Origin: Thermoplasmata archaeon
GTDB lineage: Archaea > Thermoplasmatota > Thermoplasmata > Lutacidiplasmatales > UBA184
DNA length: 36,806 nucleotides
Assembly: GCA_021790425.1 (NCBI GenBank)
Contig: JAJYEA010000002.1
Location: forward strand, 1 to 36,806
Reading direction: 5' to 3'
Every line of letters starts with the position of its first letter. Positions within the stretch are counted from its first letter, which is position 1. Shown one piece after another: positions 25,355-35,428 of this stretch. The position numbers and the translations under genes were made by a program. A model generated the notes under the pieces. It searched no databases. It was not told the DNA's origin and was given only the letters and a program-made list of their open reading frames with translations.

Positions 25355-25576
25355 TCAGACCGTCTCGGACTCGAAGAGGACGCGGGCCCCCTTCAGAGCG
25401 CTGGTAAGCTGGACCGAGAGGTCCATGGCGTCATCCAGGGAGACCGACCGCTTCCAATCGTAGATGAAGTCGTAGTTGCCCTGGGTGGGCTTGAAGCCGA
25501 GCGTTCGCAGGCGTTCCGCCACCTCCGATGGAGGGATCCCTTCGCTCGAGAAGGTCACCCGGAGATAGGTCTCCAT
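25355..25576 (-). CDS. Small conserved-looking alpha/beta protein
   Basis: A 73-residue protein: METYLRVTFSSEGIPPSEVA, then a helix (AERLRTLGF), two strands (PTQGNYDFIYDWKRSV), a helix (SLDDAMDLSVQLTSALKG) and a last strand (ARVLFESETV). The pattern beta-alpha-beta-beta-alpha-beta suggests a ferredoxin-like fold. The start ATG at 25576 lies four bases after the coaD stop. A possible internal TATA box, AAAAGTATATTC, lies in the coaD tail about 38 bases upstream, so it may also be made separately. I do not recognise the family. Confidence 0.7.
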   Translation of the reverse strand: METYLRVTFSSEGIPPSEVAERLRTLGFKPTQGNYDFIYDWKRSVSLDDAMDLSVQLTSALKGARVLFESETV

Positions 25577-25580
25577 GTGT

Positions 25581-26507
25581 TCACTGGTAGGGGAAGACGC
25601 CCGAAGGGGAATATACTTTTCGCGTCCAGCGGCCGCCGCCGGGCCACCGGGCTGCATCCCCCTCGATGACCACCGAGGGGGGGAGCGCCCCCGAGCGCGC
25701 GAGGAGACGGGGTGCGAAAGCGTCGGCGAGAAGCCCCGCGGCGACCGCCCGGAGCGAGATCGGCGACGTGAGGGTCGGAAGGGTCGCGCCGGCTCCCTCC
25801 CCGGCCACGGAGGCCTCGAGCACGGCCCCGTCGCGGTCCGTGACGGTGATCGTCCAGCGCGATCTCCCCCGTTCGAGCTCCACCCGGTAGTCGGGCGCGG
25901 TCCCCTCCGCGGCCGGGGCGGTGGCGGGGGCGTCCAGCATCCGGATCTGCGGTCCGGGCATCAACCGCTTCCACGCCTCGACGAGCGCCGCGCGGACCCC
26001 GGGGTCCATCGTGGGGGCGAAGCCGAGCACCACCGGTCGGAACCGCCGGCCCTCCCCGTCGATGTCCCCCGCCCGGATGCGTCGGGAGGCGATCGGGAGC
26101 AGGTCCTCGCCGTAGACACGGCCGACCACGACCAGGGTGAGCGGGTCCATGTGGTGGGCCGCCCTCCACTTGTTCGCCCGGACGGCGGCAGGGAAGGTCT
26201 CCTCGCTGACGGCGAGCGCCGGGATCTCCGGCTCGTGGATCTTTCCCTCCGGGTGGTCAAGGGCCAGCACGTACCACCGGCTCCCGGGGTAGCTCCGTCG
26301 GAGCCAGGTCTTGAGGAGTGCCTCGCGCTCCTCGAACGGGGTGACCCCGAGCCCCTTGGAGGGGCTTTTGGCCACGAGCGCGTCGACCGCGAGGCCGATG
26401 CCGACCTTCTGGGCGCGCGCGAACGATTCGGTGAGGAGCCGCTTGTGCCCCGCGTGGAGCCGGTCGAACGTTCCCCCCAGCACGATGAGGGGAAGGGCGA
26501 ACGCCAT
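25581..26507 (-). CDS. coaD: Phosphopantetheine adenylyltransferase with a long C-terminal extension
   Basis: The fourth step of coenzyme A synthesis: 4'-phosphopantetheine and ATP give dephospho-CoA. The archaeal PPAT signature is at residues 11-25 (GGTFDRLHAGHKRLL, with HxGH-type H18 and H21), followed by AVDALVAKSPSKGLGVTPFEERE and the adenylate-binding later part (VVVGRVYGEDLLPIASRRIRAGDIDGEGRR). Archaeal PPATs are about 155 residues; this one has 308. Residues about 165-308 (DPGVRAALVEAWKRLMPGP..., LERGRSRWTITVTDRDG) are a second unit that I cannot name; it might be a degenerate nucleotide-handling domain of the DUF84 kind. It lies in the same transcription run as the G-protein genes. 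Confidence 0.88.
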   Translation of the reverse strand: MAFALPLIVLGGTFDRLHAGHKRLLTESFARAQKVGIGLAVDALVAKSPSKGLGVTPFEEREALLKTWLRRSYPGSRWYVLALDHPEGKIHEPEIPALAVSEETFPAAVRANKWRAAHHMDPLTLVVVGRVYGEDLLPIASRRIRAGDIDGEGRRFRPVVLGFAPTMDPGVRAALVEAWKRLMPGPQIRMLDAPATAPAAEGTAPDYRVELERGRSRWTITVTDRDGAVLEASVAGEGAGATLPTLTSPISLRAVAAGLLADAFAPRLLARSGALPPSVVIEGDAARWPGGGRWTRKVYSPSGVFPYQ

Positions 26508-26711: not shown

Positions 26712-28454
26712 TCAGCTCCGTGATTCCTTGCGGGAAGAAGGGCGGCCCTGCCGTTCCTCGCTCAGCTTCTCGACCTCGCGCACGAGGGTGAGCCAGATCC
26801 GGCCCTGTGTCTGGAGGGTCGACTCCATCCGCTCGAGGATCTCGGTCGTGCGGGCGGTGAACTCGTCCTCCATGCGGTGGAGCTCCTGCCATAGCTCGGC
26901 CTTGACCTCTTCGACCTCCCGGGCGCGGAGCGGGTGGCCGGTGACCCTCGGAGCCTGCTTGAGCTCCCCCACCTTGGTCCACGTCTTCCGTATCAGGGGC
27001 AGGGTCTTCTCGGCGAAGAACTTGAGGCGGTCATCGAGGTCCTTGAGCTCGGTGCGCAGGTGGTCGACCTGGGAGAAGCGGTCGGCGAAGACGGCGTTCT
27101 CCCCGGTGAAGAAGCGGCCGAGCTCCTCGGCGACCTTCTCCGCCACGATCCGTTGCACGTCCTCGGGGGTGATGTGCGCCTCGGGCGGGGTCGCGCGGGA
27201 GGAGGTGGGGAAGGGGAGCGCTCCGGGGCTGGAGGCGGCCGTCGCCGGCGTCGTCTCCCGGCCCACCCCGAAGGGGGCGGCCGGCACGCTCCGCGGCAGG
27301 CCGGGCGCCGCGAGGCCCACCTTCTCGACGCGCAGGTGTCGCGCGGCATCGATCCAGGGGGGCAGTTCGGAGACGGCCCCCGGAGGCACCGGGACGGGGG
27401 CGAAGTCCGGGATCGGGACGGGTGCCGGGGCCGACTTCTTCGTCGCCCGGCCCTTCTTGCGCGACGGGGACTGCGACTCCTCGAGGACCTCGGCGAGTCG
27501 GGCCAGCTCCTTCCGGCGGTAGATGCCCTCCTCGGCGGGGAACGGACCCGTGAGCGCCTGCTCCACCTCCTTGCCGTCGAGGAGCGATCGGAAGGCGTCC
27601 CACTTCTCCCCGGACTCCTCGTCGATCCACGCCTTGGTCGAGGTCGGCAGGCTGGAGGGGAGCTTCCCGGGTCCTTCCGCGAGGTCCGTCACGCTGAGGT
27701 GGTGCTTCGTCCACCCGTCGACCCACCGCTTGCGCTGGTCGATCGTGGCCCGGGAGGAGATCCGGAACGCCGCGAGGGTGAGCGGGAAGGCCCGGGTCAA
27801 CTGCGGGACATCCACCTTGGCGGCGGGGATGAAGTAGGGGAAGACCAGGATGCCGGAGAGGGCGAGGAGCGACTCCGGCATGCGGGTGAGCAGGCCGAAA
27901 ACGGTCTCCACGGAGCCGTTCCAGGAATCCGACAAGAGAAGGAGCGGGGGCTGGTCGGGAGAGTTGTCCGCGTAGGAGATCGAGCGCGCGAGCAGTGCCG
28001 ACAGGGCGGGAACGCCGGGATGCGGGGGCTCCCCCGGAGGGGCGCCTTCCATCGCCCGGTACCATTGCCAGAGCGTCTGGGCCGCATTGTGGCCCGCGAA
28101 GAGCGCCTGCGCATCCAACACGAGCGTCTTGATGCCGAGCCGGGGCCGCTCCTCGGTCGAGAGGTACATCCTGCCGAGGCACAGGTAGCGCCCTCCCCCG
28201 GTCGGGAACAGGAAGAGGTTCCGGTAGTAGGAGAAGCGCTTCGCCGGATCGGGGTCCCAGTAGTCGGTGGTGTCGCTGGCGTTGATCGCGAGGTCTCCCA
28301 CGAGCTTCATCCGGGCCAGGGACTCGTTCAACCCGGGGAAGCTGTCGGGGATCGGAGTGTAGCGGGGGCTCTCCGCCTCGTTGTCGACCTGGCGGCACCA
28401 GATGATGCCCCGGAGCAGGGCGGCGGGGTCGGATCCGTTCTCTGGCCCGCTCAT
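26712..28454 (-). CDS. Large G-protein partner with coiled-coil C-terminus (GAP1-like?)
   Basis: A 580-residue soluble protein. Residues 1-330 are globular: IIWCRQVDNEAESPRYTPIPDSFPGL, FSYYRNLFLFPTGGGRYLCLGRMYLS, ERPRLGIKTLVLDAQALF, PLLLLSDSWNGSVETVFGLL. The last resembles a G-protein-associated or STAND-like alpha/beta layer. The layout recalls the N-terminal domain of GTPase-associated protein 1 (GAP1) from bacterial GTPase-centred systems, though no diagnostic residue settles it. A Pro/Ala linker (about 335-430) joins a coiled coil (HLRTELKDLDDRLKFFAEKT; EVEEVKAELWQELHRMEDEF). Its ATG overlaps the stop of the G-protein gene (ATGA), so the two are coupled and probably bind each other. Confidence 0.75.
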   Translation of the reverse strand: MSGPENGSDPAALLRGIIWCRQVDNEAESPRYTPIPDSFPGLNESLARMKLVGDLAINASDTTDYWDPDPAKRFSYYRNLFLFPTGGGRYLCLGRMYLSTEERPRLGIKTLVLDAQALFAGHNAAQTLWQWYRAMEGAPPGEPPHPGVPALSALLARSISYADNSPDQPPLLLLSDSWNGSVETVFGLLTRMPESLLALSGILVFPYFIPAAKVDVPQLTRAFPLTLAAFRISSRATIDQRKRWVDGWTKHHLSVTDLAEGPGKLPSSLPTSTKAWIDEESGEKWDAFRSLLDGKEVEQALTGPFPAEEGIYRRKELARLAEVLEESQSPSRKKGRATKKSAPAPVPIPDFAPVPVPPGAVSELPPWIDAARHLRVEKVGLAAPGLPRSVPAAPFGVGRETTPATAASSPGALPFPTSSRATPPEAHITPEDVQRIVAEKVAEELGRFFTGENAVFADRFSQVDHLRTELKDLDDRLKFFAEKTLPLIRKTWTKVGELKQAPRVTGHPLRAREVEEVKAELWQELHRMEDEFTARTTEILERMESTLQTQGRIWLTLVREVEKLSEERQGRPSSRKESRS

Positions 28455-29728
28455 GACGGAGGAGCCGCCGCCGCGGCCCGCTTTGCGAGGACGCGCTCGC
28501 AGATCCGGGCGACGGGCAGCGTCGTGTTGACCATGACCGGGACGCCGCGGTGGGACCCGTTCTCCTCCTGGCCCACCGGGGCATCACCGTAGAGGAGCGG
28601 ACGCCCCTCGCCGGTGGAGATGGCGGAGGCCACGAGGAACGCATCCTCCTTGACGCTGAAGATCGAGTTCGCCTGGGCGGCGACCAGGATGCTCCCGAGG
28701 CCGCTCCCGTCCCGCTTCGTGAGGAAGTCGGTGACGTCGAACCCGCTCGCGTAGTCCCGGCTCGTCAGGACCTGCTCGATCTCCCCGTAGAAGTCCTTGA
28801 GGAGGTCGGCCTTCGAGATGGCGATCACGAGCGGGATGTTCCGCTCGCGCACGTAGCGGAGGACCCCGCGCGCGAGGCTGATCTGCTGCGAGCTCTCCCG
28901 GATCGACCCGAGCTGGGGCGAGAGCAGGAGGATGATCCCGTCGGCGTCCGCCACGAACTGCCCCATGAGGGTGAGCCCGTTGCGCCAGAGCTCCTGCCGG
29001 TCGGCCGGCCAGGTCTCGAACTGGGGGATCACGAGGCAGTTGTCCCGGGAGACCTCGTCCTTGACGTTCCGGATCCAGAGCCGGTCGTAGGTGAAGTAGT
29101 CGGAGATGATCCCTCCCGCCTCATCCACGGTGTGGAGCACCATCGGCTGGGACGCCGTGATGTCCCCTCCCATGCCGTGCCGGAAGTAGAGCTTCATGTC
29201 GACGAACTGGTTGTACTTGGTGGGGAGGGGATACTTCGTGAGGACCCCCTGCTCCTCCTGGCCCGAGCTCAGCTCCACGAAGAGCCGGGTGGGGTCGGCC
29301 ATGGGGCGGCTCACGTAGAGCCGCGTCGTGGTCTCCATCTCCGCCTCGGGGTTCGTGGGGTTCACGGCCTCGTAGGTCGTCTCCTCCATCACCACGTCCT
29401 GCGAGACGTCGCCGTAGACGGGAAGGCCGAGCTGTCCCCGGCTCGGGATGTAGACCACGGGGAGGTTCAGCCCGAAGTGGCCGGAGAGGTAGCGGAAGTA
29501 CGTCGTCTTTCCAGAAGAGGGGATGCCCACGACCGCGATCTTGGCCGTGTTCGGCTCGGGCGCCCGGGGTCGGGCCGGGGGCTCCGGTTTCGCCTCCGCG
29601 GGAGGCGGGGCCGGTGCCGCGGGCGCCGCCGCCTTCGTGACGGTGGGCCGCGCCGGGGCGACCGACTTGCCCTTCACGGCCACGGTCTTTTTCACCTTCG
29701 ACTTGGGGGTGGGTGCCGCAGGGGTCAT
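28451..29728 (-). CDS. TRAFAC-like GTPase with a basic disordered N-terminus
   Basis: A 425-residue P-loop NTPase. G1 is GIPSSGKTT (68-76), G3 is VDEAGG (201-206, D202 and G205 of DxxG-type), and G4 is SKAD (305-308, a variant of NKxD favouring guanine). YIPSRGQLG and VSRPMADPTRLFVELSSGQEE fill a long insert between G1 and G3, giving a larger G domain than Ras-like proteins and closer to the 'double-GTPase' class. The first 58 residues are Lys/Ala/Pro rich. GGAGG (about seven bases ahead) precedes ATG 29728. It sits between the vWA gene (26 bases) and the coupled 580-residue gene. Likely a nucleotide-driven switch for this operon. Confidence 0.85.
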   Translation of the reverse strand: MTPAAPTPKSKVKKTVAVKGKSVAPARPTVTKAAAPAAPAPPPAEAKPEPPARPRAPEPNTAKIAVVGIPSSGKTTYFRYLSGHFGLNLPVVYIPSRGQLGLPVYGDVSQDVVMEETTYEAVNPTNPEAEMETTTRLYVSRPMADPTRLFVELSSGQEEQGVLTKYPLPTKYNQFVDMKLYFRHGMGGDITASQPMVLHTVDEAGGIISDYFTYDRLWIRNVKDEVSRDNCLVIPQFETWPADRQELWRNGLTLMGQFVADADGIILLLSPQLGSIRESSQQISLARGVLRYVRERNIPLVIAISKADLLKDFYGEIEQVLTSRDYASGFDVTDFLTKRDGSGLGSILVAAQANSIFSVKEDAFLVASAISTGEGRPLLYGDAPVGQEENGSHRGVPVMVNTTLPVARICERVLAKRAAAAAPPS

Positions 29729-29754
29729 ATGAGGTCCTCCATAGGAAAGTTCAT

Positions 29755-31173
29755 TTATCTCATTTCGGAGAGAGCGACTTCCACGAACGAGAGGAACCCC
29801 TGGATGCTGGCTTCCCGCTGCCGGTCCTTGAGACGGGCGTCCTGGAGGAGCCCGAAGATCTCATCGACGAGCTTCTCGTGCTCGATGGCGCCTCCGTCCT
29901 GGATCTTCGCGTAGGTGCCCCGGAGCTCCAGGAAGCGCTCGAAGAGCTGTTCCAGCTGCGGCTCGAGCTCGGGGTTGCGGGTGTGGGCCGTCAAGGCCGC
30001 GCGCTCGAAGATCTCGACCATGCTCTGGACCTCGAGATCGCCCGAGACCTTGGCATGCAGGAGCGCGAGCCGCCGGTAGATCTTGGCCTTCTCCACGGGC
30101 CCGAGCGTCTCGGCCTGGATCCACGCCTCCGTGAGGTGGCGGGACGCCTCGTCCGTGTTCCCCAAAGCGTAGGAGACCCGGGCGAGCCAGTAGCAGCGCG
30201 CCAGGGGTTGGATCTGGTTCGCATGGCGGTCCAGGACCTGCCGTGCCCGGGCCCAATCCTTGCGGGCACAGGCATCGGCCACCTCGCCGAGGGGCCCGTA
30301 GCGCTCCTTCCAGTGGGTCGGGACCCCTTCCTGGGCGGAAAGGGCGACCTCGAACTCCATCGAGCTGGAGGCGACCGGGGCCCCGGCGGGGGACGTCGCC
30401 TTGGTCGAGCCCAGGGCCGAGACCAGGCTGTGCTTGTCGCTCTCGCGCAGGGCGTGTGCGACCTTGGCCGCATGGGTCGCCAGGTCCTCGCTGGAGAGCG
30501 CGTCGAAGGTGAAGGAATCGTCGAAGGGCAGGTCGACGAACGCGTTCACCATCTGGGAGTAGAGGTCCTCCGGCTTGAGCACCTCCTGGTAGGACGCGGT
30601 CGAATTGGAGTTCGTGGCCTGCGCCCGCAGACCGAACGCCTGGATGAGCGCGTTCATCCGGACGGCGTCCACTCCCTTGTCCTTCTCCACGCCGGCCCCG
30701 ATGCCGATGATCTGGAGCCGGAGTTGGCTCCCGGCGGGAAGGATGAATCCCGCGAGGTCGTGCGGTCCCTGGGGGCTGGGGGGCGCCTCCCCGGGCTGGT
30801 AGACGGTGTACCGGCGCGACATGTTGTCCCACCCGTCGGTCACCACCACGAGGTTCCCGCGGGGAGGGCCTCCCCGGGAGAGCAGTCCCGCCCCGAGCGC
30901 GATGGCGTCCCAGATGGCGGACTTCCCGGCGGGGATGAGCTTGGACGCGATCGATTCTGCCGGCGGCGGACTGGGGGTCAGGTCGAGGAAGACCGAGGCC
31001 GAGGAATTGAAGACGACCAGTCCGAAGAGGGCCTCTTGGGAGCGCACCTCCTCGAGGATCTTGGCGAGGGCCGCGCGGGCGACCTCGATCTTCCGAGAGG
31101 TGCCGTCAGCCATCGGCGCCAGCATGCTCTTCGAGAGGTCGAGCACGAGCACGTGGCGGGGGCGTTCCTGCAC
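29755..31173 (-). CDS. vWA-domain protein with TPR-like C-terminal half
   Basis: A 472-residue protein. The von Willebrand A domain begins at once: VLVLDLSKSM gives the MIDAS DxSxS (D12, S14, S16), GKSAIWDAI supplies the Ser in the usual Thr position, and VVTDGWDN the last Asp, so metal-dependent binding is likely. A beta-rich region (PFDDSFTFDALSSEDLATHAAKVAHAL) follows. The last 180 residues are helical pairs (ARQVLDRHANQIQPLARCYWLARVSYALGNTDEASRHLTEAW), TPR-like. GTG 31173 is preferred: it is two bases after the stop of the zinc protein and places the vWA start normally; a GTG at 31224 is also in frame. Function in a G-protein complex is inferred from order. Confidence 0.85.
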   Translation of the reverse strand: MQERPRHVLVLDLSKSMLAPMADGTSRKIEVARAALAKILEEVRSQEALFGLVVFNSSASVFLDLTPSPPPAESIASKLIPAGKSAIWDAIALGAGLLSRGGPPRGNLVVVTDGWDNMSRRYTVYQPGEAPPSPQGPHDLAGFILPAGSQLRLQIIGIGAGVEKDKGVDAVRMNALIQAFGLRAQATNSNSTASYQEVLKPEDLYSQMVNAFVDLPFDDSFTFDALSSEDLATHAAKVAHALRESDKHSLVSALGSTKATSPAGAPVASSSMEFEVALSAQEGVPTHWKERYGPLGEVADACARKDWARARQVLDRHANQIQPLARCYWLARVSYALGNTDEASRHLTEAWIQAETLGPVEKAKIYRRLALLHAKVSGDLEVQSMVEIFERAALTAHTRNPELEPQLEQLFERFLELRGTYAKIQDGGAIEHEKLVDEIFGLLQDARLKDRQREASIQGFLSFVEVALSEMR

Positions 31174-31175
31174 GT

Positions 31176-31445
31176 TTATCCGTCCGTCCCCCTCAGGACC
31201 AAGGAGGTGTGCAGTCGATCGCACTGCCTCCGGAAATACCCCTCCTGCTGGCCGTACTCACGGTCCAGGTGTTCCTGGAGCGCCCCCTCCGGGACACCCC
31301 GCTCGATCAAGGGGGAGAACATGCAGGGGAAGACGATCATCCGCTTCCCTTCCACATCGACACGCTCCGTCTCAGGCTGCCCGCAGAAGGGACAGCGGAG
31401 CGCCATTGTCGCCTGGGCCACGTTCAAACCAACGCTGGTCGCCAT
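31176..31445 (-). CDS. Small zinc protein of the G-protein operon
   Basis: An 89-residue protein with one CPFCG knuckle (ALRCPFCGQPETERVDVEGKR), then FPCMFSP, and a helical end (EGALQEHLDREYGQQEGYFRRQCDRLHTSLV). The Cys pair plus Cys at FPC and RQC could bind one zinc. GGAGA about seven bases ahead favours the ATG at 31445; MALRC at 31406 is possible. It lies 15 bases behind the winged-helix/coiled-coil gene and two bases before the vWA gene. I do not recognise the family; CPFC proteins of this size often act as small adaptors. Confidence 0.75.
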   Translation of the reverse strand: MATSVGLNVAQATMALRCPFCGQPETERVDVEGKRMIVFPCMFSPLIERGVPEGALQEHLDREYGQQEGYFRRQCDRLHTSLVLRGTDG

Positions 31446-31460
31446 ATGAGGGCTGCTCTC

Positions 31461-32363
31461 CTACGAGCGCTCCCGGCGCCCCTCGGCCCGCTCTTCCGCC
31501 AGCTCGCGCAGCTCCCGCACCATCTTGCGGAGCGAGCCGCGTTCCTTGTCCAGCCGATCGAGCCCGGTCTCGCACTCCCGGATCCGCTGGACGAGTTCCG
31601 GCAGGCCAAGGTCGCGATTGGGATTCGACGTGATGCGGTCGTTCAGGATGTGTTCCTGACGCACCAGCTCCTCCATCACGCGCTCGAGCTCCGCCTGGAT
31701 CTTGCGTTCGAGGTCCGAGGCACCGCTCGTGTACCGCGCCGCGAGCGAGTCGAGCTCGTCGTGCCGACGGGCAAACTCGGCCTCCCGTCGAGAGAGCAGC
31801 TCCTCCCGCTCCGTGAGGAGATTGAGCCGAGTGTTGAGCCACTCCTCCATCCCCTCCCGGCCCCCCTTCGACTTCTCGGGGGAGGGCATGGGTTCGACCG
31901 GCTCGGGAGCCGCAGGTTCGTCGTGGGCAGGGGGCGCCTCGGGCGCGGGAGGGCTCTCCTCCTTTGCGGGCGGGGGAGCAGGAACCAGTTCGGCGGGAAG
32001 AGGTACCACTGCCCGGGGGGGGGACGGGGGAGGCGCGGGCGCGAGGACGGGGGGAGGGGTCGGGGCCGCGGTGGGGCGGACTGCAGGCGGGGCCGAGACC
32101 TTCCGGACGACCTCGATCCCTTCGTCCGTCAGTCGCGCATTGAAGTTGTCCGGGCCGAGCCACTCCATGGCCAGGAGCCCTCGGGCCTCGAGCTGGAGGA
32201 TGGTGGTGCGAAGCTGGGGGTACGTCGCGTTCCCGAACTGGCGCTTGAGGTTGCGCATGAACTCCTCTCTCGGCACCGCGAGCTTCCCCCCCCGCGAGGC
32301 CCGGTCCATGAACAGTAGGACCGCTTGGAAGAGGTTGAACGTGCCCCGCCCGTCGCCTGCCAA
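31461..32363 (-). CDS. Winged-helix protein with Pro-rich linker and coiled coil
   Basis: The first gene of the G-protein operon, 300 residues with the chosen start. Residues 5-90 form a wHTH-like domain (FNLFQAVLLFMDRASRGGKLAVPREEFMRNLKRQFGNATYPQLRTTILQLEARGLLAMEWLG). A Pro/Ala linker (about 95-170) leads to a long coiled coil (TEREELLSRREAEFARRHDELDSLAARY; DLERKIQAELERVMEELVRQEHIL; ETGLDRLDKERGSLRKMVRELREL). It could bind DNA and dock the complex through the coil. TTG 32363 has GGGAGG eight bases ahead and a TCATATCT box about 25 upstream; the only other option is GTG 32468, without signals. Confidence 0.7.
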   Translation of the reverse strand: MAGDGRGTFNLFQAVLLFMDRASRGGKLAVPREEFMRNLKRQFGNATYPQLRTTILQLEARGLLAMEWLGPDNFNARLTDEGIEVVRKVSAPPAVRPTAAPTPPPVLAPAPPPSPPRAVVPLPAELVPAPPPAKEESPPAPEAPPAHDEPAAPEPVEPMPSPEKSKGGREGMEEWLNTRLNLLTEREELLSRREAEFARRHDELDSLAARYTSGASDLERKIQAELERVMEELVRQEHILNDRITSNPNRDLGLPELVQRIRECETGLDRLDKERGSLRKMVRELRELAEERAEGRRERS

Positions 32364-32412: not shown

Positions 32413-32649
32413 GCGTTTTCCGGGGACCTCGGAGTCGGGAGGCCGAACCTCCGTCGTGCCCGCTCCACCGCCTCCTCCCGACCGGAGCGCCTCCTCCGCC
32501 CTCGGTGCCCCTACTGCCTCGGGTCCTTCGCCAGGGTCCGATGGGCGCAGGACCTGCTGCGCGCGCGGGGCGTCTGCCCGGGAATCCCGCTCTGCGAACC
32601 GGCTCTGCTGGTCCTCCAAGCCCCCCGGGAGCTTGACACATTGTTTTAA
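32413..32649 (+). other. Open frame coding for a CPYC zinc-like peptide, no start codon
   Basis: The 307-base gap 32364-32670 holds an open plus-strand frame ending TAA 32647-32649. It reads RCPYCLGSFARVRWAQDLLR and later CPGIPLCEPALLVLQAPREL. Third positions are very GC-rich, as in real genes here. But no ATG, GTG or TTG lies in frame. A GTG in another frame (32456) follows a GATAAGCG box. It may be a frameshifted or decayed small zinc protein. Confidence 0.3.
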
Positions 32650-32670
32650 GTGAGGTTCCCCCATGCTCGT

Positions 32671-33153
32671 ATGACCACGTTGCTCAGGGAATCCGCGCCC
32701 GCAGCCGCTCTAGCGCTCATGGTGGCCATTGTGGCCCTAGGGGCTGCGACTTCCTTGGGAGCCGCCAGTCCGACTCTGCCCCTCCCGACCGGGGTCTCGG
32801 GCGTCCTTGTCTCCGGATCACCCTTCTCCTCGTCCGGAGGATCGAACGGCACCGGAAACAGCTCGTTCTCGAACATCACCGGTCCGATCCTCATGATCGT
32901 GCTGGCCGTCGAGGTCCTTGTGGTGGTGTCCATTGTGGGGCTCATCGTGGGCGGCATCATCACCGTGGTGTGGCGCCGTCGCCATCCTGGGGCGAAGCTG
33001 ATCCAGCTTCCCGCCCGGCCGGAGCACTTCGTGGGATATCCATGGTCGACCGCCCCGGTGGGTGCCTCCCCACCGGCGTCGGCCCCCTCTCCACCTCCTC
33101 CGCCTCCCCCGCCACCTCCCCCGACCGCGGGGGAGGGGGGGCCGCTCCCATGA
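32671..33153 (+). CDS. Membrane protein with Pro-rich cytosolic tail
   Basis: A 160-residue protein. An N-terminal helix (AAALALMVAIVALGAATSLGA) acts as signal or anchor. An outside loop with N-x-S/T sites (SNGTGNSSFSNITG) follows, then a strong membrane helix (MIVLAVEVLVVVSIVGLIVGGIITVV), WRRRHPG and a tail with an unbroken run of prolines. ATG 32671 is 26 bases after TTGTTTTAA, so leaderless. Its stop overlaps the next ATG (ATGA): it heads a three-gene coupled operon of membrane proteins. The tail resembles the linkers of the zinc-ribbon proteins nearby but lacks the ribbon. Confidence 0.75.
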   Translation: MTTLLRESAPAAALALMVAIVALGAATSLGAASPTLPLPTGVSGVLVSGSPFSSSGGSNGTGNSSFSNITGPILMIVLAVEVLVVVSIVGLIVGGIITVVWRRRHPGAKLIQLPARPEHFVGYPWSTAPVGASPPASAPSPPPPPPPPPPPTAGEGGPLP

Positions 33154-33749
33154 TGGTCGTGCCGACGCCGGCTACCAAGCCCCGCCTCTACCGGATCTCC
33201 CGCAACCTGCGTTGGCTGGCGCTCGCGGCGACGCTCTCCGCCATTGTGTACATCATCGCCGCCGTGGTGTCGATCGCCCTCGGGCCACCGACGCTCTCGC
33301 TGGGGAACACGGGTAACAGCGGCACGGGGTTCAACACGTGCGCCAATGCCACCACGGGATCCGGACCGATCACGGTCGCTTGCAGCTTCCGGGTGACGAA
33401 CAACGCGTCGTTCCCTCTCAGCATCCAGATGGCGATGCGCATCGCCGAACTCCATGGGCCCCTGGTCCTGGCAGGGTCCACGTCCGTCGTGACGATCAAC
33501 GGCAAGCAGTCCGCCGTGGTCGACCTGGTCATCTCGCAGCAGAACACGCCGAGCCGCGGAGCCCCGTACGTGGGCTCGCTCTGGGCGAATGGATCGTATG
33601 CCTACATCGTGAGCCTGAGCCTCTCCGTTTCGTTCAACGGGAACTTTAGCTCCGCGAACGCGACCGTGGCGGTCCCGGTGGGTTCCCTCCTCTCTCCCTC
33701 GGTCGTTCCTCCCGAGGACCCCTGGATCGCAGCGAGGTGGGGCCCGTGA
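33150..33749 (+). CDS. Membrane-anchored extracellular beta-domain protein
   Basis: A 199-residue protein. A short basic cytosolic start (ATKPRLYRISRNLRW) precedes one helix (LALAATLSAIVYIIAAVVSIALG), and about 140 residues lie outside. These have a likely disulfide (CANATTGSGPITVAC), N-x-S/T sites, and a VTNNASFPLSIQMAMRIAELHGPLVLAG strand pattern that recalls LEA-14/WHy-type beta sandwiches (inference). It is coupled at both ends: ATGA with the gene before, GTGA with the one after. A second ATG at 33153 is possible. Confidence 0.72.
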   Translation: MMVVPTPATKPRLYRISRNLRWLALAATLSAIVYIIAAVVSIALGPPTLSLGNTGNSGTGFNTCANATTGSGPITVACSFRVTNNASFPLSIQMAMRIAELHGPLVLAGSTSVVTINGKQSAVVDLVISQQNTPSRGAPYVGSLWANGSYAYIVSLSLSVSFNGNFSSANATVAVPVGSLLSPSVVPPEDPWIAARWGP

Positions 33750-34276
33750 ACGTCGCCAGCATCCCTCCGGGAGCGCCGCCCCACGTGGCGATGGCCTACT
33801 CGCCCCCGAGCCCCCCGTGGACCTGGACCAAGGGGATCCTGAAGACGCTGTGGCTCCTCTTCTTCCTCTCCTTCCTTCCCTACGAGCTCGGTCAGTTCTT
33901 CGCTGGGATCAAGTCGGGCGGGGTGTCGGTGATCTCAGGATGGCCGGTCCAAACGCTGGTCATCCTCGGTGCCGTGGTGGCCCTGCTGTCCGGGGCGCGC
34001 ACCATCGCGCGTCCTTCCCTCCGATACGGCCCGGTCTGGCTGGCCCACCAGCTGGCCAAGGTGGCGTACCTCCTCGTGCTCGCCTCGGGAGCCTTCTTCG
34101 GTGTTGCCTTCAGCAACTCCGGCACCGGCGGCTCGGTCGTACTGAACTACTCGGGCGTCATCTACCTCTTCATGATCGGGACCGTGATCGCAACGATCGC
34201 GGCTGTGATCGGCACCGTCGAGGACCTCAAGCATCCCGGCGAGCGCCTCCCCTTCGATTTCCCCGTGAAGCGCTGA
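33746..34276 (+). CDS. Four-helix membrane protein
   Basis: A 176-residue protein. A Pro-rich start (SIPPGAPPHVAMAYSPPSPPW) precedes helices at about residues 30-46, 63-82, 100-120 and 133-155; the C-terminus is cytosolic (EDLKHPGERLPFDFPVKR). The GTG start at 33746 overlaps the previous stop, so the three genes 32671-34276 are made together. An AT-rich 114-base gap with its own promoter box then separates the DUF973-like gene. Family not recognised. Confidence 0.72.
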   Translation: MNVASIPPGAPPHVAMAYSPPSPPWTWTKGILKTLWLLFFLSFLPYELGQFFAGIKSGGVSVISGWPVQTLVILGAVVALLSGARTIARPSLRYGPVWLAHQLAKVAYLLVLASGAFFGVAFSNSGTGGSVVLNYSGVIYLFMIGTVIATIAAVIGTVEDLKHPGERLPFDFPVKR

Positions 34277-34390
34277 TATCCGACCCCGATTCGCAGCATA
34301 ATCTTGCCGGGACCTGCGCAACCCGGCCTCATTTTACCCCCTCCGGTGGCGAGCATCACATTCTTAAGCTAGGAACGTTATCTGGGCGCG

Positions 34391-35428
34391 ATGTCTGCGC
34401 AACCACCGACCCCAGGTCCAGGCGCTGCGACGATGCCCCCTCCGGGCTACGGAGCGCCCGCGTACGGACAACCGATGGCCATGACCCCCACCCAGTCCGC
34501 GTCGAGCCCGGACCGGGATGGAGTGGGGACGCTGAAGATCGCGTCCCTGCTGGGACTCATCGACCAGGCGATGTTCTGGATCGGCTTCCTGATGTTCTAC
34601 CTGATCGTCACCGCGGTCTCGGCCTACTCGCCGGGAGTGACCGCCTACCCTGGCTGGATCACCGTCAACACGGTCTATGCGTCGGTCGGCCTCCTCATCG
34701 GCGGCGCCGTGGTGGGGCTCATTTCCTACATCTTCTACTACCTCGGCTTCCGCAAGCTCAAGCAGGCGGCGCCGGAACTCGGAACGCCCGCAACCCTCTC
34801 CCTCATCGGGTTGATCGGCTTCCTCATGATCGCGGGCGGCATTGGACTCTTCCTCGGGGTGTTGGTCTCCGCCATCTCTTCCCCGCCTACGACCGCAGCA
34901 TCCGCGGGCGGCACGATCGCCGGACTCTTGGGTGCGCTTGCCCTTCTTGGGATCGGCGGTATCCTCGGATTCATCGGGGTCATCGGTGTGGTCCTCGGGA
35001 ACTGGCGCGCCGGGAAGCGCTACCAGGAGAGCATGATCAAGGTCGGGGGTATCCTCCAGATCTTCCCCTACGTGTCGATCGTCGGGTTCATCCTCTGCCT
35101 GGTGGGCTACATCAAGGCCGACAAGAAGCTCGAGTCCGGCTGGATGCCTCCCCTGACCCAGATCGCCCCCGGCGTGATGGTCGTCGCCCCGGGTTCGGTG
35201 GTCGTGGCCGGGGGCGGCGTGGCCTACGCCCAGCCTGCCCCGTATGGGAGCCCGCCCCCGTACCAGTACGGCGCGCCTCAACCCCAGTACGCTCCCTCGC
35301 CGGCTCCGGCCCCAGCGCCGGTCGCCGCGGCCCCGGCGGCCCCCCTGTGCCCCCGGTGTGGACGACCCACCACGTTCGTGGCCCAGTACAACCGCTACTA
35401 CTGCTACGGCTGCCAGCAGTACGCCTGA
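34391..35428 (+). CDS. DUF973-like membrane protein with C-terminal zinc ribbon
   Basis: A 345-residue protein. A Pro/Gly/Ala start (1-40) precedes LKIASLLGLIDQAMFWIG and about five or six helices (to about 250), in the style of archaeal DUF973 proteins. A second Pro/Tyr-rich tail (PYGSPPPYQYGAPQPQYAP) ends in a zinc ribbon at 320-345, with CPRCG and CYGC knuckles. Both tails should be cytosolic. The ribbon is nearly the same as the one ending the 117-residue protein at 36093. A TTCTTAAGC box is 27 bases before the ATG, so leaderless. Confidence 0.8.
   Translation: MSAQPPTPGPGAATMPPPGYGAPAYGQPMAMTPTQSASSPDRDGVGTLKIASLLGLIDQAMFWIGFLMFYLIVTAVSAYSPGVTAYPGWITVNTVYASVGLLIGGAVVGLISYIFYYLGFRKLKQAAPELGTPATLSLIGLIGFLMIAGGIGLFLGVLVSAISSPPTTAASAGGTIAGLLGALALLGIGGILGFIGVIGVVLGNWRAGKRYQESMIKVGGILQIFPYVSIVGFILCLVGYIKADKKLESGWMPPLTQIAPGVMVVAPGSVVVAGGGVAYAQPAPYGSPPPYQYGAPQPQYAPSPAPAPAPVAAAPAAPLCPRCGRPTTFVAQYNRYYCYGCQQYA

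Follow-up and report, generated by a model that had tools for sequence, protein, structure and literature searches.

A vertically inherited vWA-GTPase-partner gene trio in a family of Thermoplasmata, with a predicted longin-DENN-like domain in the GTPase partner

In the window, that is the whole stretch of 36,806 nucleotides that was analysed, three adjacent genes encode a vWA protein, a Ras-like GTPase and a partner protein of 580 residues (P580). Comparison with relatives revealed that these three genes are a conserved unit, which is inherited vertically, is lost as one unit and is not mobile. The three-gene set matches no described system, in agreement with the first-pass annotation, which had called the GTPase-centred operon a candidate undescribed system, and the 580-residue protein matches no known family. 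We tentatively propose, at somewhat less than an even chance, that the core may be a vertically inherited three-protein GTPase switch, in which a longin-DENN-like partner, probably a GAP, would be carried on a coiled coil and the vWA protein would serve as reader. From the earlier reading we retain a GTPase switch that has its own partner, and the longin-DENN-like fold predicted here makes this idea more specific.

The window forms the beginning of a contig of 114.6 kb in a genome of 2.5 Mb, the nearest relatives of which are MAGs named 'Thermoplasmata archaeon'. Frame reading of the window sequence recovered all five minus-strand frames that had been described, separated as stated by 15, 2 and 26 bases, with the ATGA overlap joining the GTPase gene and the P580 gene (Table 1). 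The 2-base gap follows from a GTG start of the vWA gene at 31173; in its longest form the vWA frame would begin within the Zn gene, at 31224. The gene of the winged-helix-like/coiled-coil protein (WHCC) starts with TTG, and an alternative GTG start is possible at 32468.

Table 1. Features of the locus and its surroundings, by position in the window
Feature	Position	Strand	Basis or remark
P580, GTPase partner, 580 residues	26712..28454	-	Adjoins GTPase 3' end in 28 loci
P580 layout: N-terminal longin + alpha/beta (DENN-like) domain (predicted), Pro-rich linker, coiled coil, conserved C-terminal helical segment			
P580 residues 14-330, predicted longin-like half + P-loop-like alpha/beta half without P-loop	27465..28415	-	AF2, Foldseek
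P580 residues 99-107, predicted beta4-beta5 loop S-T-E-E-R-P-R-L-G, candidate arginine finger	28134..28160	-	24-sequence conservation; location rule of PMC12803157
GTPase, TRAFAC (Ras-like) by motifs and model, about 120 residues between G1 and G3	28451..29728	-	Motifs in 23 sequences
GTPase G1/P-loop GIPSSGKTT, residues 68-76	29501..29527	-	Alignment
GTPase G3 DEAGG, residues 202-206	29111..29125	-	Alignment
GTPase G4 SKAD, residues 305-308	28805..28816	-	Alignment
vWA protein, MIDAS + helical/TPR-like C-terminus ending ...FVEVALSEMR	29755..31173	-	PF13519; 22 aligned sequences
vWA MIDAS DLSKS	31126..31140	-	Alignment
Small CPFC zinc protein, not core	31176..31445	-	Adjoins trio only in window's genus
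WHCC, not core	31461..32363	-	Adjoins trio only in window's genus
K73 (73 residues, METYLRVTFSSEG...), function unassigned	25355-25573		Between CoaD and M50 peptidase in loci read; identity 51-75% across the family
CoaD-type pantetheine-phosphate adenylyltransferase	25581-26507		C-terminal extension resembles bifunctional enzyme of NF002250
Divergent upstream genes, Pro-rich membrane-like proteins	32650-35428		One is a DUF973 protein with C-terminal zinc ribbon

Conservation and inheritance of the three genes

Neighbourhoods were read from 29 related genomes, and the order vWA, GTPase, P580 was held in nearly all of them. Both exceptions, one locus without P580 (L064) and one without the vWA gene (L065), are truncated by contig ends. 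Identity to the window's protein across relatives was 55-69% for the GTPase, 39-56% for the vWA protein and 31-44% for P580. Since the GTPase is so similar across genera and the order of the three core frames is preserved, the conservation of the trio in sequence and order exceeds chance. All five genes had been taken as one unit at first; in the neighbourhood search this unit was confirmed for vWA-GTPase-P580, the only part conserved family-wide. On the 3' side, the trio is followed by CoaD, K73 and an M50 peptidase wherever contig extent and similarity permit a match; the stretches read from genus g3 gave no match of this kind. On the 5' side, the cluster PDCD5-L39e-L31e-eIF6 stands in most loci of genera g4-g7, and other genes are found in g1, g2 and one inspected g3 genome; in the window's genus (g1) they are the WH-like and Zn genes.

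The GTPase profile matched 81 of the 106 genomes of the order; each of the seven genera in the window's family is represented and no sister family is, and outside the family a profile search of a 390-genome phylum sample gave only weak P-loop matches. In that sample, the profiles of the P580 N-domain and of the GTPase picked out the identical 18 genomes. Furthermore, five near-complete g4 genomes have neither GTPase, P580 nor vWA gene (the vWA absence was judged by a vWA profile search on 14 genomes). The eIF6...CoaD-K73-M50 context is retained in four of these five with the trio missing, and the fifth ends at a contig end. The tree of the flanking genes and that of the trio had 14 of 19 splits in common. 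This agreement, together with joint absence where the flanks are retained, shows that the trio is inherited vertically and lost as one unit; its genes were directly seen to lie collinear and tightly spaced, and to occur together or be missing together. A plasmid tblastn with the GTPase as query gave no match, and PADLOC gave nothing beyond a weak match to mad8 in the P-loop region.

By reading, the trio-less sites (L169-L172) hold S17e and a small cysteine-rich membrane protein. Two of them, L171 and L172, have an aldolase-like gene as well, and L172 also has a transposase-like gene.

The GTPase, the vWA protein and the predicted fold of P580

In the GTPase, the G1, G3 and G4 motifs noticed in the window proved to be conserved in 23 relatives (GIPSSGKTT/GIPASGKTT, DEAGG and SKAD, respectively), with a G5-like SA(I/V)S, and G3 has Gly at the position of the Ras catalytic Gln61. 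Further nearly invariant blocks lie in and after the long insert (LTKYPLPTKYNQFV and DYFTYDRLW). The AF2 model was poor (pLDDT 62.6), and its structure matches in the PDB were kinesins, Ras, Rheb and Rap, which is consistent with a Ras-like protein of the TRAFAC class: the G1, G3 and G4 motifs of that class are found, and its Ras-like fold is seen in this low-confidence model. A search of PDB sequences returned nothing useful for the GTPase, and there was no MglA-type Pfam match.

The vWA protein scored 36.3 bits against PF13519 (Pfam cut-off 27). Its MIDAS was correctly described as intact, since DxSxS and the VTDG Asp do not vary among 22 aligned sequences, with Ser replacing the usual Thr; the proposed TPR-like C-terminus was matched only weakly (ANAPC3, E=0.0014), and the C-terminal tail is strictly conserved. 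No clear transmembrane segment was found in the vWA protein, the GTPase or P580, and the docking of the switch to DNA or membrane that had been suggested gained no support.

P580 ranges from 558 to 1313 aa over 28 loci. The range arises in the Pro-rich/coiled-coil middle, and the two ends, the N-domain and a C-terminal helical segment, are conserved. Hydrophobic periodicity fits helical coils at residues 441-570 of P580 and 171-250 of WHCC, and Pro-rich stretches occur in P580, the GTPase and WHCC, so periodicity and composition agree with the coiled coils and with the Pro-rich stretches in three members reported before. The N-domain was modelled by AF2 from 24 sequences with pLDDT 88.8 and pTM 0.90. 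The strand and helix order of the longin domain is well established. In the AF2 secondary structure, the first half of the modelled domain runs b-b-a-b-b-b-a-a, the order described for longin domains (PMC4703059). Strands and helices alternate through the second half in a P-loop-like manner, with no P-loop motif and only four clear strands against five, and three helices close the modelled region, where the d-DENN helical domain was compared.

In Foldseek searches of the PDB, no match reached E<=0.001 and TM-scores were low (0.2-0.4). The top match was 7mge_C (E 1.4e-3), a chain of C9orf72:SMCR8:WDR41-ARF1, and the matches included the Lokiarchaeal longin domain chains 8yqg_A/B (prob 0.63/0.77), the GATOR1 chain 6ces_N, general alpha/beta folds and many AAA+/P-loop chains. 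Zhang et al. reported that the sheet of the DENN domain has a minimal P-loop NTPase topology without the nucleotide residues (PMC3521125), which would explain both the longin-type and the P-loop-type matches. Because the AF2 order, the coherent Foldseek list and the published DENN topology point the same way, we read the N-domain, with moderate confidence, as a predicted longin domain with a DENN-like alpha/beta domain after it. The Pfam DENN, longin and roadblock families had no match in the 24 P580 members up to E=10, the N-domain had no match among PDB sequences, and a viral structure library gave nothing beyond weak P-loop-type matches.

The 24 sequences are most strongly conserved in the beta1-beta2 segment WCRQVDNEAESP and in the beta4-beta5 loop, where S99, E101, R103, P104, R105 and G107 are invariant. 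A 2026 preprint (PMC12803157) takes as the defining mark of DENN GAPs an arginine finger located between strands beta4 and beta5 of the longin domain, and R103/R105 of P580 lie at this place if the longin assignment is right. SMCR8 acts on ARF1 through its longin Arg147 finger (PMC8213707).

Candidate mechanism and its alternatives

We propose, as the simplest case, that P580 is probably the GAP of its GTPase, because an invariant R-P-R stands at the predicted DENN-GAP site and the GTPase is without Gln61. In this proposal, the predicted longin-DENN-like N-domain would act on the operon's GTPase with the R-P-R loop as candidate finger, while the linker and the coiled coil, of very variable length, would serve to keep the switch at some distance on a scaffold. 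The MIDAS of the vWA-TPR protein may bind an acidic or peptide ligand, and the protein would read or assemble its target according to the nucleotide state. The name of the fold, the contact between P580 and the GTPase, catalysis and the vWA protein as reader are what we infer here, and invariance of the Arg would also be expected of a residue with a structural or phosphate-binding role. It is somewhat unlikely that P580 is instead a longin-DENN-like GEF, or a passive scaffold or effector whose conserved loop holds the GTPase without catalysis. DENN proteins are mostly Rab GEFs (PMC3521125) and the beta1-beta2 peak would suit such a role, but the invariant Arg pair lies in the very loop that distinguishes DENN GAPs, and the missing Gln61 also argues for a GAP. 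That the trio is a divergent member, in archaea, of the DO-GTPase/GAP1 conflict systems, which the first-pass annotation had raised as one of two possibilities, is very unlikely. The order of GTPase then partner, the vWA companion and the Pro-rich/coiled-coil parts would agree with it, and DO-GTPase2 was matched in 6 of 23 GTPases; however, these matches, the only ones to the DO-GTPase1/2 families, were all below the cut-off (best E 0.054). By eye, the peaks of conservation in P580-N and in the GAP1-N2-like protein of a second locus (see below) fall at similar sites, close to the first strands and, farther along, about an acidic-Arg-Pro stretch; we take this only as a lead for comparing structures. 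Against this kinship, the hhalign score of P580-N with the local GAP1-N2-like family was reached by 35 of 60 block-permuted nulls, although with such shallow alignments a remote kinship may have been missed; the profile alignment of the GTPase with the local DO-GTPase-like family covers 20 P-loop columns only, and the GTPase is without DxxGE. Pfam GAP1-N1 and GAP1-N2 had no match in the 24 P580 members. Moreover, no mobile neighbourhood with variable effectors was seen around the trio, whose context is fixed and whose trees are largely congruent. Since there was no GAP1-N match and the GTPase aligned only at the P-loop, we do not claim membership.

Two other explanations concern the gene context. 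All five genes could be one functional operon in the window's genus, with the Zn and WH proteins regulating the switch, as is suggested by the tight spacing in the window, by the Zn protein in the same place in three further genomes (G002, G003 and G004), and by the WH protein placed likewise in G003 and G004 (partly also in G002, where a contig end cuts it). We regard this as unlikely, for 35 of 61 relatives, trio-less genomes included, have the Zn protein, which lies elsewhere in the genome outside g1, and the WH-like family is found there on other contigs, unlinked to the trio. Because both are found apart from the trio, the Zn and WH-like genes lie outside the conserved core. The winged helix itself, recognised in the initial reading, was not confirmed by Pfam; the best match was to a phage family of NCBIfam, below the cut-off (E=3.4e-4). 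Relatives of WHCC unlinked to the trio were also observed in the same genome (G000:C8:82643-83860 and C8:56716-57084) and in the family. A housekeeping complex for assembly or quality control of ribosomes or translation is quite unlikely. Such a role would fit the position of the trio, with CoaD on its other side, 3' of PDCD5-L39e-L31e-eIF6 in most genera examined besides g1-g3, as well as S17e at the trio-less sites, but the upstream genes are different in g1, g2 and one inspected g3 genome, and five near-complete genomes live without the trio.

Comparison with known systems

The DO-GTPase/GAP1 systems resemble the trio in that a TRAFAC GTPase gene precedes the gene of a dedicated partner, and some of them have vWA proteins (Kaur et al. 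2020, PMC7159879). In contrast, the trio has no sequence link to them, shows no GAP1-M/C, FNIII, GASH or effector genes, is vertical, and has DEAGG rather than DxxGE at G3. Thirteen of 61 relatives carry a second GTPase locus (L111:5383-8359, L113-L130), which is a candidate archaeal double-GTPase system. Its distribution is patchy: it occurs in g3, g4, g6 and weakly in G038, and the search did not find it in the genome that contains the window. In its typical form, a pair of GTPases related to each other (hhalign E 4e-59), with DO-GTPase2/1 matches just below the cut-off, flanks a GAP1-N2-like protein, whose GAP1-N2 match is weak but near full-length, in one member; some loci have a PKD-domain membrane protein. 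Other DO-GTPase2 matches were rejected by reading, those in sister family f2 being HflX and those in G040/G048 FtsY.

In the MglA/MglB polarity switch, a small GTPase and a GAP of the roadblock/longin superfold are likewise encoded in one operon (PMC3521125), but the trio GTPase lacks an MglA-type Pfam match, a vWA protein is the third component, and P580 has an added alpha/beta half and a coiled coil. MoxR-vWA systems also pair an NTPase with a MIDAS-bearing vWA protein; the NTPase of the trio is a GTPase of TRAFAC kind and not an AAA+ ring.

Zhang et al. placed the fusion of longin, DENN and d-DENN in the eukaryotic stem lineage (PMC3521125), and longin and roadblock proteins occur in Asgard archaea (PMC10933270). 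No longin-DENN protein of non-Asgard archaea was found in the longin, DENN and archaea literature, the coverage of which was limited and is not proof of absence. A bolder reading, which we consider rather doubtful, is that this non-Asgard archaeal family has a complete longin-DENN module acting as arginine-finger GAP of the operon GTPase, and that bacterial DO-GTPase GAP1 proteins may share the fold. If true, the complete module, so far regarded as a eukaryotic invention, would not be confined to eukaryotes, and the DENN fold would predate them or have arisen twice. A DENN-like partner encoded beside its GTPase in a simple operon would already provide a prokaryotic counterpart to the GTPase regulators on which membrane traffic and mTORC1 signalling centrally depend. 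A family of unannotated proteins would also become a testable switch, and the GAP1 proteins of bacterial conflict systems would deserve a second look.

The longin-DENN regulators (C9orf72:SMCR8, FLCN:FNIP, GATOR1 NPRL2/3 and Avl9-type DENN GAPs) share with P580 the predicted longin order followed by a P-loop-like alpha/beta half, the invariant Arg in the predicted longin beta4-beta5 loop and, in that P580 is encoded with a Ras-like GTPase, the company it keeps. P580 differs from them in being archaeal, without detectable sequence similarity, in its long coiled coil, and in its operon linkage to a large-insert GTPase and a vWA protein.
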